From positions 2,418,001 through 2,482,000 of the forward strand of contig NZ_CP156688.1 in the NCBI RefSeq assembly GCF_040616545.1: 64,000 bases of DNA. Reading direction: 5' to 3'. The position numbers were made by a program, and so were the translations under genes. The notes below the pieces were generated by a model, which was given only the letters and a program-made list of their open reading frames with translations, was not told the DNA's origin and did no database searches. The stretch is from Akkermansia muciniphila (lineage in GTDB: Bacteria > Verrucomicrobiota > Verrucomicrobiia > Verrucomicrobiales > Akkermansiaceae). Below, in pieces: positions 15,746 to 24,937 of the stretch (positions within the stretch are counted from its first letter, which is position 1; each line of letters starts with the position of its first letter).

Positions 15746-17380
15746 ATGTCCACCAAAATCTTTCTCTACGATACCACGTTGCGCGACGGCGCACAGAGTG
15801 AAGACGTCAATCTGAGCGCGACGGACAAGGTCCGCATCGCCCGGCAGTTGGATTATCTGGGTATGGACTACATTGAGGGGGGCTGGCCCGGCGCCAACCC
15901 GGTGGAGACGGAATTTTTCAAGGCCATGAAGGACGTGGAACTCAGGAAAGCGAAGCTTGCCGCCTTCGGCAGCACGCACCATCCCGCCCACACTCCGGAG
16001 ACGGACCCTACGCTGAACGCCCTGGTTTCCTGCGGCGCCCGGGTGGCCGCCATCTTCGGCAAATCCTGCCCCCGCCATGTGGAAGTGGCGCTGGGCATCT
16101 CCCGGGAGCGGAATCTGGAAATCATCGGCAATTCCATCTCCTACCTTAAAAAGAATCTGGAAGAAGCCTTTTTTGATGCGGAGCACTTTTTTGACGGTTT
16201 CAAGCGGGACCCGGAATACGCTCTGGCCGTGCTCCGCGCCGCCCATGAGCACGGAGCGGACTGCCTGGTCCTGTGTGATACCAACGGAGGCGCCATGCCG
16301 GAGGAAATCGGCGCCATCATCCGGACGGTCCGTGAACGCCTGCCGCAGGCCTCCCTGGGCATTCACGCCCACAATGACTGTGAACTGGCCGTCGCCAACA
16401 GCCTGGCCGCCGTCAGAAACGGAGCCATTCAGGTGCAGGGGACTGTGAACGGTATCGGGGAGCGCTGCGGAAACGCCAACCTGTGCTCCGTCATTCCCAA
16501 CCTTCAGGTGAAGATGGAAGGCTTTTCCTGCCTCAGCGACGCCTCTCTGACGCGGCTCAAATCGACCGCCGCCTTCGTTTCGGAAGTCTCCAACCTGGCT
16601 CCCTTCCGCCGGCAGCCCTTTGTGGGGAACGCCGCCTTCGCCCACAAGGGGGGCGTGCACGTGAGCGCCATTATGAAGGACTCCGCCCTGTACGAGCACA
16701 TTGACCCCTCCCTGGTGGGGAACGCCCAGCGCGTGCTGATGACGGAGCAGGGCGGCAAGAGCAACATCCTCTCCCTGTCCCGCACCTTAGGCTTTGAACT
16801 GGAAAAGGGAGACCCCCTGCTGGACGTGCTCTCCGCCGCCGTGAAAAAAAACGCCGCGCTGGGATATGACTATGTGGCCGCTCCGGCCAGCGCGGAACTG
16901 CTCTTCCTGCGGCACATGCCGGACAGCGCCCTGAAGCCGTACTTCAACATCCTGCGCACCGTGGTTCTTACCTCCCGCCATGAAATGGATCCGGACATGA
17001 TGGTGGAAGCCTCCCTCAAGCTGGACGTCCACGGCAACGTGGAGCATACCGCCGCCGGCGGCTTCGGCCCCGTGCATGCGCTGGACCGCGCCTTGCGCCG
17101 CGCCCTGACGCGCTGGTACCCGGAACTGGAGCAAATGCACCTGATCGACTACAAGGTGCGCGTGCTCTCCCCCACCCGGACGAACATTCCGGACGCGGCG
17201 GAAGAAAACGGCACCGGCTCCAATGTCCGCGTGCTCATTGAATCCTCGGACGGCGTCGCTACCTGGACTACGGTGGGCGTCTCCTACAACATCATTGAGG
17301 CCAGCCTGGAAGCCCTGGCGGACGCCGTCACGTACAAGCTCTACAAGACGGAGCAGGCCAGATGGCGCGCGGAATGCTGA
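15746..17380 (+). CDS. cimA: Citramalate synthase-type acyltransferase
   Basis: A 544-residue member of the isopropylmalate/homocitrate synthase family. The N-terminal TIM barrel begins with DTTLRDGAQSE, whose aspartate and arginine bind metal and the keto acid, and contains HAHNDCELA, the conserved metal-binding histidine pair. A C-terminal LeuA-type dimerisation/allosteric domain covers about residues 400-544. The architecture and the VNLSATDKVRIARQLD helix match CimA, which condenses pyruvate and acetyl-CoA to citramalate for isoleucine synthesis, rather than LeuA. The GTN (Asn-bearing) region is intact. A leuA-like role cannot be excluded without alignment. It is divergent from the M3 peptidase gene. 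Confidence 0.85.
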   Translation: MSTKIFLYDTTLRDGAQSEDVNLSATDKVRIARQLDYLGMDYIEGGWPGANPVETEFFKAMKDVELRKAKLAAFGSTHHPAHTPETDPTLNALVSCGARVAAIFGKSCPRHVEVALGISRERNLEIIGNSISYLKKNLEEAFFDAEHFFDGFKRDPEYALAVLRAAHEHGADCLVLCDTNGGAMPEEIGAIIRTVRERLPQASLGIHAHNDCELAVANSLAAVRNGAIQVQGTVNGIGERCGNANLCSVIPNLQVKMEGFSCLSDASLTRLKSTAAFVSEVSNLAPFRRQPFVGNAAFAHKGGVHVSAIMKDSALYEHIDPSLVGNAQRVLMTEQGGKSNILSLSRTLGFELEKGDPLLDVLSAAVKKNAALGYDYVAAPASAELLFLRHMPDSALKPYFNILRTVVLTSRHEMDPDMMVEASLKLDVHGNVEHTAAGGFGPVHALDRALRRALTRWYPELEQMHLIDYKVRVLSPTRTNIPDAAEENGTGSNVRVLIESSDGVATWTTVGVSYNIIEASLEALADAVTYKLYKTEQARWRAEC

Positions 17381-17994
17381 TGGACGGCGCGTCCTCCAGG
17401 GAGCTGAAAGCCGTTTTGATATTGGTGCTTGGATAAATTCTTTGAAAGGTTTTCCGTATTAAGGAGGCTGTCTCTTTTCCAGAAACGAGGTAAGAATTTC
17501 TCCCATGGAAAAGAGTGAAAAGGTTATTAGAAAGAAGTAATTACATTGTTTTCTATTGTTTCCGTTATGGAAGATAATATGTTATTTCTAAACATATAGT
17601 TACATCTTCTTATCCAATAAATATCATAGAAAGAATCAAATGAAAGCGATGAACAGCCTCCTGCACTGGCGCGTTTAGGCACTCAACCGGCCGAATACTT
17701 CACCAACATCAGCCGAGGATGCAGGGAATTGAGGATTCATTCATCCAGTTCTATGAATGCCATAAACGGCCTTAAGAGTTGGAAAGACCTGCCCTCCATG
17801 CATAAGACATCCTCAAACAACATCGCTCTAAGCTAACCAAGCCTTCTGGAGTGGTTGCTCCATACTTGCAAAAGAATACTGTCATATTGAACAGCTCTTG
17901 AAACTGGATAAACATATATAAGGTTTACTAACCTGTCGTTCATTTTAAGGTTCTTTATCTGCTTAGATATATTCTTATTCGCCATAAAACTATT
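17381..17994. other. Mosaic intergenic spacer, possible mobile-element relic
   Basis: About 610 bases without a convincing gene. It is AT-rich, except for an island at about 17640-17860 of nearer 50% GC. The island holds a 68-codon open stretch (17630-17833, plus frame) with no start codon at its head and no recognised similarity. A 10-bp inverted pair, AGGAGGCTGT at 17462-17471 and its complement at 17653-17662, brackets 181 bases. A second perfect 10-bp inverted repeat (CTCTTTTCCA ... TGGAAAAGAG) spans about 17473-17516. These look like remains of an insertion but no transposase can be named. Confidence 0.35.
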
Positions 17995-18321
17995 TTAACG
18001 TAGTTTTTTCATCAACATTTTAAATACGCCCTTCACAGCCAGGTAAATATAAAAAATAAATGTATGAATAAACCCCCATGAGCATCCATAGTCCAAAATT
18101 AAAGGAATGCCCGCGATGTCATTAAGACTTTTATAAGCCGGCAGGGAAAATGCTATGCAGATGCTCACACCTCCTACCAGAGGAATCCATGATGCATTAG
18201 TCTTTCTTAAGATATATCTTTTGATAAAAATAATCCAATTATAAATGATAACTAAAGTCCCTATGAGAATTAGAAACCAAAATAATGATTGATATATTAT
18301 ATTGTAAATCATAGTTAACAT
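17995..18321 (-). CDS. Small membrane protein, probable Rhs immunity protein
   Basis: A 108-residue protein with three predicted membrane helices (about residues 8-32, 47-63 and 84-103) and a basic C-terminus. I do not recognise a family. Its ATG at 18321 overlaps the TAA of the giant Rhs gene by one base (TAATG), so translation is coupled. The coding sequence is much more AT-rich than the rest of the window, as is the 3' tip of the Rhs gene. A small gene directly behind an Rhs toxin tip is the standard place for the cognate immunity protein; that role is inference from position. A membrane-located immunity protein would suggest the toxin acts at or through the envelope. Confidence 0.65.
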   Translation of the reverse strand: MLTMIYNIIYQSLFWFLILIGTLVIIYNWIIFIKRYILRKTNASWIPLVGGVSICIAFSLPAYKSLNDIAGIPLILDYGCSWGFIHTFIFYIYLAVKGVFKMLMKKLR

Positions 18322-21300
18322 TAGTTTTTTGGAGGGGTGTAAATTCTTTGTTTAGCAGGAAGAAGTCGTTTGAAGAATCCATCAAGTCCTTTACCAGTAG
18401 GACACGAAAGAGAGCTTTTAGGAACCACATAGCTTCTTACGTTCCATACAGGTGCAAATAGATTTTTCAAACCTGGCTGCCATTTTCCGGACCACATATA
18501 ATTCCATACGGTTGGAGTGCCTTCCATTACCCATGAATTTGGGGTTAGATCCGATCCCCATCGTGAGACTGTTGTCACTTCAATCTCAGTAGATTCAACT
18601 AATACTTTTGGGCAACATTTTGTCGCCGGCGTAGTAAAAGCCTTAGCTCCTAAAGCTACTTCTGCACCAGCAGCAATGCTATTTGCCGCTTCCGTTGGAA
18701 CTCCTACAGATTCAGCGCCTTGAACTATGGCTTTATAAGTCATTGTCGAATCAAATTCGCCGGTAATAATCACACGAATACCTGTACTTGCCACATCACT
18801 CCCATGGACAAACAGAACTACTCCTCCAGCTGTTGTTACAGGTTCGGGGGTAAAAATGCCAATTGCTCCTGCAGTTGCTTCAAATCCTCCTCCAACTACT
18901 TGTAATACCCCTGTTGCTCTATTGACAACCTTGTATTCTCTGTCTATTTTTTTAATTTTTTCAACAGTCAGTGTTGCTGTACGCTTAGTTCCCTGCCATA
19001 CTAAATTGGCATTGTGTTTGGTGCCATCTATCCACCACTGTAAATCACGGCCAAGATAATCTTGGTTTTTAATTCCATTATTTTTAACAAAAACAAACAA
19101 ATTTGCACCTGCTTCTTCTGTAAGTGGATCACGGCTGATCCATCTTCCATCGAGTGGGTTGAGATGGCGGTAATTATAATAAATTAGACCCATTTCTTCG
19201 TCCATATACTCACAGGAGAAACGGAATTTATTATTTTGAGCTATTTTCCCATGTGCTGTCAGAGTGTCTCCAAAGGGTGCATACTCATAGCGGCCTCTTC
19301 TCTCTGCATCATCTCCAAAGATAGAAGTGACATTCTTGAGCACATCATGCATGAAGTAGAGATGCTCGTCTTGTTTTGCTGCATTTTTCCATTGCGTCAT
19401 CAATATGCGCGTGGCTGTTGGTTCGGTGGGATCCCACAGATAGCTCTTTTCCAACATGGGCTGGGAGTGCATTAAATCCAGCTGAGCTATTTGCAGGTAG
19501 TCACGGTATAGGTAATAAAGGTGGCTGACGGTACTTCCGTTGATAGTCACTTTTTTGCTGAAACGACGTCCCATATAGTCATAACCGCAGGCAATAATGG
19601 TACGTCCATCTTTACTGGTAAACCGGACAGGGCGATCATGGGCGTCGTAAGAAACATTCCAGATTCCCGTTGAAGTTTTGATCGTGATCTGATTGCCGTC
19701 GGCATCATAGACGGGGTCAAAAAATTGTTGTTCCGGAGTGGAGGAGGAAGAGTTGAGAGGGGAGTTAATGATGTTTGTGTATTGATTAAGAGGATTGACT
19801 CTGTAGGAGATTTCTTTTTGCAGTTCACGGGCAGTTTTACGGTTGCCGATGTTGTCGTAGGAGTATATAAAGCTTCCTCCTCTGCTGGTACGGTCTTTGA
19901 CCAGCTCGCTGCGGTCATTGTAGGTAAAATCTCGGATTGTTGCCAGTAAGTCTTTATCCCAAGAGTCCTGTCGTTGGGTGGGGCGCATCAGACCATCATA
20001 GTTGTACTCATGGAAGGCCGCTAATTCACCATCCGCTCCCTTCTTGTAACCGATGGCAGTCACGAGATTTAGTTCGGGATGATAGGTGTTTTGGCGGACC
20101 ATGCCGTTGGGGTAAGTAAGATGGTTAAGAAAGCCGCTGGTTGGATCATACTGCCACGTGAAGGGAGACTCCAGGCCTTCCAGATTCATCCCGATGATGG
20201 CACCTTTGGAGTCATAGTCAAGATGGGAGTACTGGATGGTTTGGGTTCCGAGCATCAGGCGATAGCCTTCCGAACGTCCCATGGCATCGTATTCTTCCTG
20301 GAGGCAGCTCTCTACTGTCCCAAAGGAAGTCTCTTGGGTCATGCGGCCATAATTGTCATAAGAAAGTTCCTTTAATCCAGAGGCGTCCCGGATGGAGGTT
20401 ATTTGTCCCAGGTGGTTATAAGTAAACTCCCATCCAGCAGTAGCATCATTATGATAGACGGAGACGAGTTCCCCGGTGAGAGGAGCATAGGCGTAGGTGG
20501 TAACGACCCCTCTCGCCTTGGTCAGCGTCTCTAGACGGTTGAGGCCGTCGTAGGTTTTGGAGATACAGGACCCGTCGGCATAGGTCTTGTTCAATTCCAA
20601 CCCCGTAGCTTCGTCATAGAGCCAGGTGGTGGTATCCCCGTCGGTACGGCCGGAAGGATCGGTGGTAATGTCGCCTTCGTCTGCTCGGAAGGTAGTCAAC
20701 GTTACCATATGATCGGCTTCGTCGTAAGTGAAACAGGCCGGCTGGATGGCAGTGCCGTACGCGGCAGTTTTTCTGCCGCGTACGTCGTAGGAATAGCAGG
20801 CAGTACCTCCCCAGGCATCGGTGATGCGGGCCACGGCATCGCAGCAAGGCTGGTACCTGGTGGCCGTCAGATTGCCGGCTGCGTCCGTACTTTTGACGGG
20901 ACGTCCGGCAAGGTCGGTTTCAATCGTCGTGATATTGCCTCTGGAGTCGGTCTGTTTTAGAATCATGCCCGCGGAAGTGTAGGACCGGTTCTGTGAAGAA
21001 TGAATGCCTGCGTGGCTGGTTTGACTAACGGTGAATCCGTCAATGATGCGAGTTTCGGCTACTACACTGGAAGTGGGTATGCTGCTAAATTGTATGCGTT
21101 GGGTAGCAGCAGTGTATTCCGTCCAGTGGATGCTCCGTTGTCCGTAGATATCCGTCGCGATCGTTTTCTCTTCCAAAATGGGACTTAGCTGCGAAACCAT
21201 ATTTTCTATGTGTTGAATAAGGGGTAGTCCTTGTTCATTGTGATTAGTAGATGTCTCTATTTGATAAATACCGTCTTCGCCAGCTCGATAGTATGTGATA

Positions 21301-24300
21301 CTTTTCGAGATTTGATTTTTAGTAGGATCATCTGGATAAAGCTCGTCTAGAAGAGTGGCCTGCTTCAAAGGGATTCCAAGCTCACTGTAAGTAATAACGG
21401 TGGGCGCCATATTATCTATTTGGATACGTGTAAGCTGTCTTTTGTCATTATAAGTATTCTTAGTAGCGATGAATTTCCCAAGACTATTTGGTTGTTCTTT
21501 CCGTATAGGTTGGTTGAAACCATTAGTTAAAGAGCGGGAGAGAATTACCCCTTTGGATAGGGTGGTGGTCAGGATACCTTCCCCGGTTAGTTCCAGTCGG
21601 GTCTCCGTTTCGCGCTGGCCGGTTCCTCCTTGCCAGAGAATAGTGCCATCGTAGTACTTTCTGGTAATCAAAGTGGCTCCGGAAGGAGTAATCACAGTAG
21701 TAGTGAGCCGATCCTCACTATAATGGGTCCGTGTCACACGTCCCAGTATGTCTATAGAAGAAACGACCGTTCCAAGATCGTCATACTCTGTCCTTTCCAC
21801 TGTAGTCATGGACCCCACGTCGCGGCGCGTGGCAATCGTCCTTCCCGCCGCATCATAGCTGTAGGAAGTAATTGTTTCTGGAGTGGTCTCAGTAGCTGAG
21901 CGGATGGTTTCCACCAGCTGCTTGGCTGAATTGTAGCCGTAGCTGGTTGTGATGCCGTCTTCGTCGGTTTCCCTCAACGGCCCGCAGCACATCCATTCCG
22001 TCGTGCTGCTTCTGCCGTTGCCTTTGGTGGCCTTGATCAAGTTGAGTTCCGCATCATATTCGTAGTCTTCCGATGAGACCAGAGACCATTCTTTCCCGGT
22101 ATGAACATACTGTTCGTTTCTGGTGGCCGTACCGTTTTCAGCGATGTATTGCACATTTCTAGTACTTTGTCCCGGAATGATGCTTCCATTGGCCTGAATG
22201 GTAGTTGTTAATTTGTGGATGGCCCGGTAGTCCGTAGTGGCTTCATAACTGTAGACGGTCTGCACGCCAGCGATACTCTGAAGAAGTTTCTTTCTCCCCC
22301 GGGCATAGGGGTATTCGGCTTCTTCCCCATAAGTCTCCTCCACGCGCGTATGGACCTGGTCGGAGCCCAAAGCGGCTTCTCTCACCGTAGTGCGGTTGAC
22401 TTGCGGTGTATCTTCATACGTGTAGGTGCGCTTAAGAAGCTCCGTTTCTTCCCCGTTTTCGGCAATGACCACTTCGGTTTCCGTGGCGGGTCTGAAGTCG
22501 TTAAAGCGCAGGTCGGCATATGTCGTGCGAGTTCCCTTTTCACCTCCTCCCGCCCAAGGAGTAGCTTCCAGCGTCACCCGCCCCTGCTCGTCATACTCAT
22601 AGCGCGTATAACCGCCGTCGGGCTTGAGTTCCAGAGACACCCGGAACTGGTCGTTGTAGGTGTAAAGCGTTGTTTGTTGGCTGGGGGTATTGTAGCCTTC
22701 CGTCCGGCTCAAGGTCAGCCAGCCTCCCTCGGTATTCTTCTTGACCGTCCGGGTACAGGAAGAAGGAGTTTTCTCATTGATCCTGCGTTTATTATCAATC
22801 ATTTCCCACTTCCCGTCAGGCAGTAGGTTTCTTTCTATCGTATGTATGAGTCGCTCGTCACCCTCGCCTTGAATGATGGTTACATGGCTGCCCTCTACTC
22901 TCCGCTCCGTATGGAAGATAGGCATGCCTTCCCTCTGCTCGGCGATGTGCATCACGTTGACTCCATTTTCCACACTCGTCTGATACCTGACCGTTTTATA
23001 AGGAGTTCCAGTTCCAATAAAGCTACCGGATATCTTCTGTACCTGATCTGGAGTATACCATTGAAGGATAAGTCTGCCGTCTTCCGGTACGGCTTGAAGA
23101 AGACCCTCGTACTGGGACCAGATGCTTTGCACGGCTCCGGTGGCTGGATGGCGGTTGACCTGAAGTTTTTGAGCATAGTCCTCCGCCGTGGTTTCTACGC
23201 CGCAAGAAGAGATTAAAGAGACGACCTTTCCGGTGGCGGCCGAGAAACGCAGGATGCGTCCGTTGCTCTGGACCATGTCCAGATAGGTAGGTTCCCCCTC
23301 GGTACAGGGGGATTTGTCTTCGTTAAGCAGCCGGACTCTGTAATTAAGCTTGCGGGAATTTCCGGAAACGGGAGCCTCCGCACTGCCTTCAACCGCCTGG
23401 AAGGAGATGGAACTCCCAGTGGGACGCCTGACGCTTAACCGGCGTGTTTGAGAATTCCAGTCACAGGTCCACTCCAGGGGATGCTTGTAGCGAAGCCCAA
23501 TAGAACCCTTAGATAGGGAGCGGAAGCTGAAGGAGGCAAAAAAGTTGGTGTTGCCGCCTCCCGAACCTTCCCCGTCCACCTCGAGCATGCCCTGGCAATC
23601 ATCGGCTTCATCAGGATTGCCGCCGAAGGGATGGCTACCGGCGGAATTTGCTCCTCCATTCTTGTCGCAACTGGTTTGATCAGTTTCTTCATCACATTCA
23701 CAGGAACAGGGGCATGGACATCCCTCCTCTTCCGGGGCACTGGAAGAGGAGGAAAGAGAACTGGAACTGCTGCTGGAAGAGGAGCTGGAGCTCGAAGAAC
23801 TCGATGAACTGGACGAGGACCAGGAAGAACTGCTTGACGAGGAGGAGCTGTTTGAAGAACTCGAACTGCTGGAGGACGACGAGCTGGAAGACGGAGCGCT
23901 GCTGGAGGAAGATGAAGAAGAGCTGGAGCTGCTGGATAGAGATGAACTGGAAGAAGAATCCGGAAGCTCGGGAACCCAGGAACTCTGCTGGGAGCTGGAA
24001 GACGAGCTGCTGGAGGAGGAAGAGCTGGAACTGCTGGAAGAAGAACTGGAGCTGCTACTTGACCTGGGGTCAAACTCAAAGGAATCTCCTCCCCCTGCCG
24101 AGGAACTGCTAGACGAGTTCCCCTCCTCCTCTTCCTGGTACAGGTTGACCAGCGTCAGCACCGTTTCTCCCTGCTTGCCGGGAGGCATCGTCTCCTCTGA
24201 AAGGTAATAGTCCAGGTCGGGCTCTCCTTCCTTGTCGCACATTAAGGCAATGCAGAACTCTTCTTCCGACCCCAAGGAAGGCTGGTATTGATGGACGATG

Positions 24301-24629
24301 TGGCACCAGTAATAGCCCTGTTCGAAATGAAGCTGGCGGCAGAGAGGGGTGGAAGAGCCGGCCTCCGTGGCAAGTTCCAGCTCCTTGGCGGGGATGGAAA
24401 GGGAAATGGAGGAGCGGGCATGAAGGTGGAGAAAACAGGTGGAGGGAGCCATGACCTTAAGGTATCCGAACCATTCGTGGCGGGAGGGGGAGGAAGCGGT
24501 CCGTTTGGGAACGAGAACGGGAGCGGTGAGGCCGTTGACCAGGAAGTTTCCCTGGGGCTGTCCGTTGGGGTACATGGGAATGAAGGGGTAGACGGTGTCC
24601 ATGGCACCGATATCGAAAGTGTTGTTCAT
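18321..24629 (-). CDS. Giant Rhs/YD-repeat polymorphic toxin
   Basis: About 2102 residues. The N-terminal ~170 residues form a compact domain without signal peptide or PAAR motif. Then come a ~125-residue poly-Ser linker (encoded at about 23750-24100 with mixed Ser codons) and a Cys cluster (EEEGCPCPCSCECDEE). A long YD-repeat region follows (many units like YDGLNRLETLTKA), forming the Rhs cocoon. The Rhs core ends with YEYAPFGDTLTAHG and GRWISRDPLTEEAG. The last ~240 residues are a variable tip with hydrophobic helices and a Trp-rich end (SRWGSDLTPNSWVMEG, SGKWQPGLKNLFAP), presumably the toxin; I cannot name its family. The ATG at 24629 is preferred, though a TTG at 24653 with GGGG upstream is possible. 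Its stop overlaps the immunity candidate. Confidence 0.88.
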   Translation of the reverse strand: MNNTFDIGAMDTVYPFIPMYPNGQPQGNFLVNGLTAPVLVPKRTASSPSRHEWFGYLKVMAPSTCFLHLHARSSISLSIPAKELELATEAGSSTPLCRQLHFEQGYYWCHIVHQYQPSLGSEEEFCIALMCDKEGEPDLDYYLSEETMPPGKQGETVLTLVNLYQEEEEGNSSSSSSAGGGDSFEFDPRSSSSSSSSSSSSSSSSSSSSSSSSQQSSWVPELPDSSSSSSLSSSSSSSSSSSSSAPSSSSSSSSSSSSSNSSSSSSSSSWSSSSSSSSSSSSSSSSSSSSSLSSSSSAPEEEGCPCPCSCECDEETDQTSCDKNGGANSAGSHPFGGNPDEADDCQGMLEVDGEGSGGGNTNFFASFSFRSLSKGSIGLRYKHPLEWTCDWNSQTRRLSVRRPTGSSISFQAVEGSAEAPVSGNSRKLNYRVRLLNEDKSPCTEGEPTYLDMVQSNGRILRFSAATGKVVSLISSCGVETTAEDYAQKLQVNRHPATGAVQSIWSQYEGLLQAVPEDGRLILQWYTPDQVQKISGSFIGTGTPYKTVRYQTSVENGVNVMHIAEQREGMPIFHTERRVEGSHVTIIQGEGDERLIHTIERNLLPDGKWEMIDNKRRINEKTPSSCTRTVKKNTEGGWLTLSRTEGYNTPSQQTTLYTYNDQFRVSLELKPDGGYTRYEYDEQGRVTLEATPWAGGGEKGTRTTYADLRFNDFRPATETEVVIAENGEETELLKRTYTYEDTPQVNRTTVREAALGSDQVHTRVEETYGEEAEYPYARGRKKLLQSIAGVQTVYSYEATTDYRAIHKLTTTIQANGSIIPGQSTRNVQYIAENGTATRNEQYVHTGKEWSLVSSEDYEYDAELNLIKATKGNGRSSTTEWMCCGPLRETDEDGITTSYGYNSAKQLVETIRSATETTPETITSYSYDAAGRTIATRRDVGSMTTVERTEYDDLGTVVSSIDILGRVTRTHYSEDRLTTTVITPSGATLITRKYYDGTILWQGGTGQRETETRLELTGEGILTTTLSKGVILSRSLTNGFNQPIRKEQPNSLGKFIATKNTYNDKRQLTRIQIDNMAPTVITYSELGIPLKQATLLDELYPDDPTKNQISKSITYYRAGEDGIYQIETSTNHNEQGLPLIQHIENMVSQLSPILEEKTIATDIYGQRSIHWTEYTAATQRIQFSSIPTSSVVAETRIIDGFTVSQTSHAGIHSSQNRSYTSAGMILKQTDSRGNITTIETDLAGRPVKSTDAAGNLTATRYQPCCDAVARITDAWGGTACYSYDVRGRKTAAYGTAIQPACFTYDEADHMVTLTTFRADEGDITTDPSGRTDGDTTTWLYDEATGLELNKTYADGSCISKTYDGLNRLETLTKARGVVTTYAYAPLTGELVSVYHNDATAGWEFTYNHLGQITSIRDASGLKELSYDNYGRMTQETSFGTVESCLQEEYDAMGRSEGYRLMLGTQTIQYSHLDYDSKGAIIGMNLEGLESPFTWQYDPTSGFLNHLTYPNGMVRQNTYHPELNLVTAIGYKKGADGELAAFHEYNYDGLMRPTQRQDSWDKDLLATIRDFTYNDRSELVKDRTSRGGSFIYSYDNIGNRKTARELQKEISYRVNPLNQYTNIINSPLNSSSSTPEQQFFDPVYDADGNQITIKTSTGIWNVSYDAHDRPVRFTSKDGRTIIACGYDYMGRRFSKKVTINGSTVSHLYYLYRDYLQIAQLDLMHSQPMLEKSYLWDPTEPTATRILMTQWKNAAKQDEHLYFMHDVLKNVTSIFGDDAERRGRYEYAPFGDTLTAHGKIAQNNKFRFSCEYMDEEMGLIYYNYRHLNPLDGRWISRDPLTEEAGANLFVFVKNNGIKNQDYLGRDLQWWIDGTKHNANLVWQGTKRTATLTVEKIKKIDREYKVVNRATGVLQVVGGGFEATAGAIGIFTPEPVTTAGGVVLFVHGSDVASTGIRVIITGEFDSTMTYKAIVQGAESVGVPTEAANSIAAGAEVALGAKAFTTPATKCCPKVLVESTEIEVTTVSRWGSDLTPNSWVMEGTPTVWNYMWSGKWQPGLKNLFAPVWNVRSYVVPKSSLSCPTGKGLDGFFKRLLPAKQRIYTPPKN

Positions 24630-24937
24630 GGTAATGAAATGGTGTTTGTTCAATGGTTGCCCCTACCATGAAACAAAAACTACCAGTGTAAACACGCCGC
24701 GAACGTTATCTCTAAATATTAAAGTTTATGGGGGAAAATTTGACTCTTTTTCAATCACTTCCGATCGAAATTTGGATATTTGAAAAGAGGTATAAATGAG
24801 GAAACATGGTGAATGAAAGAGGGAGATAAAAATTTGTTGAAAGAGAAAACCCGGGATTTCATGGCAATAAATCATTGACCCGCCGGGAGGGAAGCTCTAT
24901 CCTGAAAGCCTCATTCAACCGGAGGAAGATTACAGCC

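Follow-up and report, generated by a model that had tools for sequence, protein, structure and literature searches.

Akkermansia is a common gut commensal, and no description of its Rhs toxins was found in the literature searched. The window, i.e. the whole analysed stretch of 64,000 nucleotides from Akkermansia muciniphila, contains an Rhs gene whose C-terminal end was originally predicted to be a toxin tip of no recognised kind. The question raised by the locus is which part of this tip would be the toxin, what protects its owner and where in a competing cell it might act.

The Rhs gene and its tip

18321..24653, minus strand: Rhs gene with Ser-rich N-terminal linker, RHS repeats and Rhs-associated core (open reading frame, PF05593, TIGR03696)
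19107..19148, minus strand: end-of-core motif GRWISRDPLTEEAG, read from the sequence and common to paralogues with other tips
18321..19043, minus strand: variable 240-aa tip with stop codon; unrelated tips are found at the same locus in two other genomes (G107 and G028)

The open reading frame encodes 2110 amino acids from the first TTG (24653) or 2102 from the ATG (24629), and the protein matches the Pfam and NCBIfam profiles PF05593 (E 4e-27) and TIGR03696 (E 2e-17), both above the cut-off. A poly-serine linker of more than 100 residues is found in the N-terminal part (23700-24120, minus strand). The core terminates in GRWISRDPLTEEAG...DYLG, after which the tip begins; its coding part (18324-19043) is 240 amino acids long, as the original prediction of about 240 residues behind a conserved core had it.

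The predicted composition of the tip held in part. The two hydrophobic helices are present as segments, at tip residues 46-64 and 75-93, but their hydrophobicity is mild, with Kyte-Doolittle means of 1.41 and 1.51 that are under the usual threshold for a transmembrane (TM) segment. The end of the tip, described as Trp/Gly-rich over some 90 residues, contains six Trp among its final 87 residues (about 7%) but has an ordinary Gly content. A tip more AT-rich than the core is seen in third-position GC, which is about 0.5-0.7 through most of the core and 0.22-0.30 in the final 300 or so codons; the fall starts in the last approximately 70 core codons, ahead of the tip, and plain GC is therefore equal just upstream of the tip and inside it (0.43 in both).

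Replacement of the tip at a fixed locus

17388..19126, no strand: cassette-like variable segment; DNA homology to G107 and G028 breaks at about these points
15746..17380, plus strand: citramalate/2-isopropylmalate-synthase-like flanking gene, a synteny anchor outside the system

A syntenic Rhs gene, about 71-89% identical in DNA where it could be matched, is present in G107 and G028, which represent two related species, and the C-terminus of the flanking gene is 98-99% identical beside an Rhs gene in both. Homology to these genomes ends at about window position 19126 and picks up again at about 17390-17425. Between the breaks G107 and G028 each carry an unrelated tip and immunity gene of their own, and the tip is thus not conserved as part of the core in the orthologues. 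The source genome has 13 Rhs-core matches, mostly with different tips, and the paralogous tips that were read are unrelated to the one at 18324-19043. In genome G038 a homologue of the putative toxin-immunity pair is found in a 382-aa partial-core reading frame behind another Rhs gene, i.e. as an orphan cassette. Recombination of orphan rhs cassettes into the main gene, and their use there, is possible in Salmonella (PMC3967940). Judged by the synteny break, the unlike paralogue tips and the orphan cassette, the tip is a replaced one, which agrees with the replacement that had been predicted.

Other tips and remnants were observed in the course of the comparison. The orthologous tip in G107 (L095:2247-2756, minus strand) matches Peptidase_M76 (E 8.5e-15) and has an HExxH motif; here a metalloprotease serves as the tip. 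In G028 the orthologous Rhs gene is followed by a tandem peptide repeat, IGNYRQLSAT (L096:480-1602, minus strand), with more than one readable frame. Two other Rhs tips of the source genome itself (G000; L057 and L062) appear by eye to be alpha/beta hydrolase-like (GTHSLGAA) and a JAB-like domain (HTHTDHDPNFSGAD). A third (L063, G000:C1:2231736-2234500) closes with an extended hydrophobic stretch rich in Gly and Ala; behind it lies a putative immunity gene whose product looks soluble, and a homologue of this immunity gene is present as an orphan in G038 (L069). In the window, the approximately 560 AT-rich bases from the 108-aa gene described below to the neighbouring gene (17425-17990) hold short open reading frames only, perhaps the remains of older cassettes.

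An 87-aa domain linked to a membrane protein gene

18324..18584, minus strand: 87-aa Trp-rich putative toxin domain (VTTVSRWG...WVMEG...N...VVPKSSL...QRIYTP), also found after other pre-toxins, where the accompanying 3-TM immunity genes are homologous or different
18319..18323, minus strand: TAATG overlap of the Rhs stop codon with the start codon (ATG) of the putative immunity gene
17995..18321, minus strand: 108-aa, very hydrophobic three-TM membrane protein with three hydrophobic peaks, putative cognate immunity protein (family A); homologues lie behind the toxin domain
18675..18923, minus strand: pre-toxin, entry-type module (tip residues 41-123), mildly hydrophobic and Gly-rich, with homology to other pre-toxin stretches

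The gene of the 108-aa protein was not part of the region originally predicted. Its TAATG overlap with the Rhs gene makes translational coupling of the two likely, and a family A homologue is found immediately behind every close homologue of the 87-aa domain. The two occur together in L001/L002, L003/L010, L004 and L005/L011. In another family of the class (L018) the 87-aa domain (E 2e-17) and the immunity protein (E 5e-11) are found without the pre-toxin module, the pre-toxin of L018 not being convincingly related to that of the window (0.008). From this arrangement it appears that immunity specificity resides in the 87 residues. A search for the same tip behind other Rhs cores, suggested with the original prediction, found that the last 87 residues recur at the C-terminus of further Rhs proteins in Verrucomicrobiota. 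Since they alone track the immunity gene, the idea of the whole tip as toxin is narrowed: the last approximately 87 residues would be the toxin proper.

The hydrophobic part of the tip has relatives of its own. Residues 41-123 are homologous (E 1e-11 in a pairwise test) to the stretch preceding an RNase A-like domain (PF18431) in a Rhizobium gene and on Pantoea plasmids; the Rhizobium gene sits between Hcp and VgrG genes, in a type VI secretion (T6SS) locus, and both toxins are followed by a CDI-type immunity gene unrelated to the 108-aa protein. The module is also present in the L006 Rhs protein, with another toxin and immunity gene. By these homologies the hydrophobic part of the tip is an exchangeable entry-type module common to other toxins. 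That the module is itself a pore former, with the 87-aa domain as a targeting or immunity-recognition element, is very unlikely: its two hydrophobic Gly-rich segments can be compared to some glycine-zipper toxins (PMC12744356), but the published glycine-zipper pattern is absent from the tip, the same module precedes bona fide RNase toxins, and L018 combines the 87-aa domain and the immunity family without it. The swaps in both directions, of the entry module with RNase A toxins and of the toxin with another pre-toxin, make this system well suited to telling entry domains apart from killing domains.

Orphan and diverged immunity genes

Of 388 genomes of the phylum, 16 have a match to the 108-aa family at E <= 0.01, the least significant of these matches probably being due to chance. 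The immunity proteins of the window and its close relatives are 45-48% identical and thus more diverged than the toxins (70-74%). Homologues without an adjoining toxin domain, i.e. orphan immunity genes, were observed in L078, L079, L080, L081, L082, L083 and L084. L078, from another Akkermansia, lies beside a decayed Rhs core and encodes a protein 87% identical to that of G038; a dN/dS of about 0.29 indicates that the gene is under purifying selection, and it would have been retained after loss of the toxin or gained alone.

Because the pair co-occurs, exists as an orphan cassette and has its membrane gene alone as orphans, the tip domain and the 108-aa gene very likely constitute a toxin and its immunity gene, and the three-helix membrane protein very probably shields the cell that makes it. 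That the tip is instead a structural Rhs end without toxicity, or a decayed one, is highly improbable. The dN/dS of the 87-aa domain is about 0.1-0.2 among close relatives, with synonymous sites nearly saturated, and the linked membrane gene, the orphan cassette, the orphan immunity genes and the replacement at a fixed site all speak against it. A defined toxin-immunity pair together with orphan immunity genes would make strain-level antagonism in the gut directly testable.

The distant members of the 87-aa domain (L008, L019 and L012/L013 of Pseudoalteromonas) retain a Trp, a (W)V.xG stretch, an Asn, a Pro and the terminal QR. This subfamily has a second set of three-TM immunity proteins (family B), to which no relatedness of family A was detected by sequence comparison; pairwise resemblance inside the second set is itself weak (E 0.015). 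The reading frame of L012/L013 runs off the contig end, with any Rhs context beyond view. Among 369 genomes of Gammaproteobacteria the domain was found in the already known Pseudoalteromonas only, and none was found in the viral contigs and phages searched. A plasmid-borne Rhs protein of Oscillatoria, the sole record among 72,556 found by queries from two subfamilies (E 1 and 0.02), is a probable, still more distant member. Three other matches were not retained: that of a large repeat protein (L020) was judged to be due to chance, L007 preserves no more than a decayed piece of the domain end, and a Bartonella match (H7) falls in an Rhs protein but near its N-terminus.

Family and structure searches

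The tip gave no match in Pfam (2025 copy), NCBIfam (2026 copy) or PADLOC, and nothing credible was found in the sequence search of the PDB. For the 108-aa protein a match to WecA (TIGR02380, E 4e-4) was regarded as chance, with 20 bits against a cut-off of 326, as were its other matches in Pfam, NCBIfam and PADLOC, all sub-threshold. AlphaFold2 models of the 87-aa domain, built on shallow five-row alignments, are of low confidence (pLDDT 63 and 57); they are alpha/beta, with a weak strand-strand-helix-strand-strand topology. Foldseek searches with them against PDB and BFVD gave chance matches only, and the fold is therefore left unclaimed. A match to a structural domain, the result that would have told against a toxin, was thus found neither in Pfam and NCBIfam nor in the PDB sequence and Foldseek searches, and the original view that the tip belongs to no named toxin family was correct. 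Neither toxin nor immunity is covered by Pfam or NCBIfam, and the pair represents a new family, as yet without a name, within a familiar type of toxin-immunity system.

Proposed site of action

The only invariant polar residues of the 87-aa domain across seven homologues are N28, Q79 and R80; none of the His, Asp, Glu, Cys, Ser and Lys residues is invariant in this alignment. This speaks against the usual nuclease, deaminase, protease and ADP-ribosyltransferase chemistries, an argument that rests on seven to eight divergent sequences. The domain has a GRAVY of -0.39 and a net charge of +7, and no TM segment is seen in its hydrophobicity profile.

Membrane immunity, together with the lack of conserved catalytic residues and of a fold match, favours action at a membrane. 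Channel-forming antibacterial effectors have polytopic membrane immunity proteins in almost all cases (PMC12744356), and the CDI ionophores combine an entry domain and a toxin with a hydrophobic immunity protein (PMC11630599). On balance the toxin is thought to act on the inner membrane, so that the pair probably attacks the inner membrane of competing cells; that it does so specifically by depolarisation, the effect that Ntox25 and Tse5 have, is put forward with more reserve. The Rhs shell would carry the cargo and, if other Rhs proteins are a guide, release it near DYLG, and the entry-type module would help the cargo to reach or cross the inner membrane of the target cell. The terminal Trp-rich domain would then act at that membrane, most likely by depolarising it, while the co-translated three-helix protein would bind the toxin within the membrane and in this way protect the producer. 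Against this mechanism, the 87-aa domain is non-hydrophobic, has no TM helix and models as alpha/beta, unlike helical pore formers, and membrane immunity may instead block entry.

The latter point bears on the possibility that the 87-aa domain acts in the target cytosol, as a degenerate ADP-ribosyltransferase-like or RNA-directed enzyme, and that the membrane protein blocks entry through the inner membrane. Such entry-blocking immunity has been proposed for Imm-CdiI and Imm17 (PMC3482391), the entry-type module is common to RNase A-like toxins, which must reach the cytosol, and the weak modelled topology is compatible with an ADP-ribosyltransferase-like fold. Cytosolic action is nevertheless unlikely. 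The module-sharing RNase A-like toxins have unrelated CDI-type immunity and the membrane gene goes with the toxin domain rather than the entry module, both of which tell against a block of entry; the catalytic Arg and Glu that small ADP-ribosyltransferase toxins conserve are not found in the 87-aa alignment, the strand 1 Arg being Ser or His in relatives and an invariant Glu being absent.

Alternatively, the 87-aa domain might be an enzyme whose substrate is embedded in the membrane or linked to a lipid, such as a cell-wall lipid carrier or a phospholipid. This would also agree with membrane immunity in both subfamilies, with a soluble, basic, alpha/beta-like domain and with the invariance of N28, Q79 and R80; the immunity protein would shield the substrate or bind the toxin. 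This is rather unlikely, as a conserved nucleophile, acid or metal ligand is absent and no lipase or cell-wall enzyme family matched the 87-aa domain.

Returning to disruption of the inner membrane, it is tentatively proposed that these domains form one family, Trp-rich, about 87 residues long, non-catalytic, alpha/beta and inner-membrane-disrupting, with at least two subfamilies that each have their own, apparently unrelated three-TM immunity protein. One subfamily is found in Verrucomicrobiota, the other in Pseudoalteromonas and other Verrucomicrobiota, with a possible cyanobacterial relative. If true, this would be a new structural class of membrane-acting Rhs toxins.

Comparison with known systems

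The helical CDI ionophores (E. coli CdiA type 10, e.g. EC93; PMC11630599) resemble the Akkermansia system in the entry plus toxin plan, the hydrophobic membrane immunity and the strong divergence. They are five-helix bundles, whereas the present domain is basic, Trp-rich and, in low-confidence models, alpha/beta; the membrane-spanning helical bundle is not found in the 87 amino acids, which lack a TM segment. Ntox25 (PF15530) of CdiA ionophores (PMC11630599) is likewise a small non-helical toxin behind an entry domain that can be exchanged, and its mechanism was not evident when it was first found. Ntox25 folds as a tapered beta-barrel, for comparison with which the models of the 87-aa domain are too weak. 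The PF15530 profile matched none of seven members of the 87-aa domain at E up to 10, and the FGPY motif of Ntox25 (PMC3482391) is absent from the alignment. Tox-WTIP is a small Trp-containing toxin at the ends of Rhs proteins, with two TM helices, RxxR and Wx[ST]IP (PMC3482391), all of which are absent from the 87-aa domain. Because it fails these tested features the Akkermansia domain is filed in none of the three groups; it may work in a similar manner.

The RNAse_A_bac (PF18431) effectors of Rhizobium and Pantoea have the pre-toxin module in common with the window but differ in toxin and immunity, and the PF18431 profile, which matches these effectors, gave no match to the tip. Tse5 (PMC10684867, PMC9637101), likened by description, is a pore-forming Rhs effector with a membrane-active tip, its C-terminal toxin being regarded as acting at the inner membrane; the 87-aa domain differs in being non-hydrophobic and without a TM helix.

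The main and orphan rhs of Salmonella (PMC3967940; survey PMC3482391) share the conserved core, replaceable tip, adjacent immunity gene and orphan cassette, whereas the toxin and immunity domains of Akkermansia are outside named families. With RHS repeats and core, an exchanged C-terminal tip and a linked immunity gene, the locus has the sequence features of an Rhs polymorphic toxin system with a putatively toxic tip.
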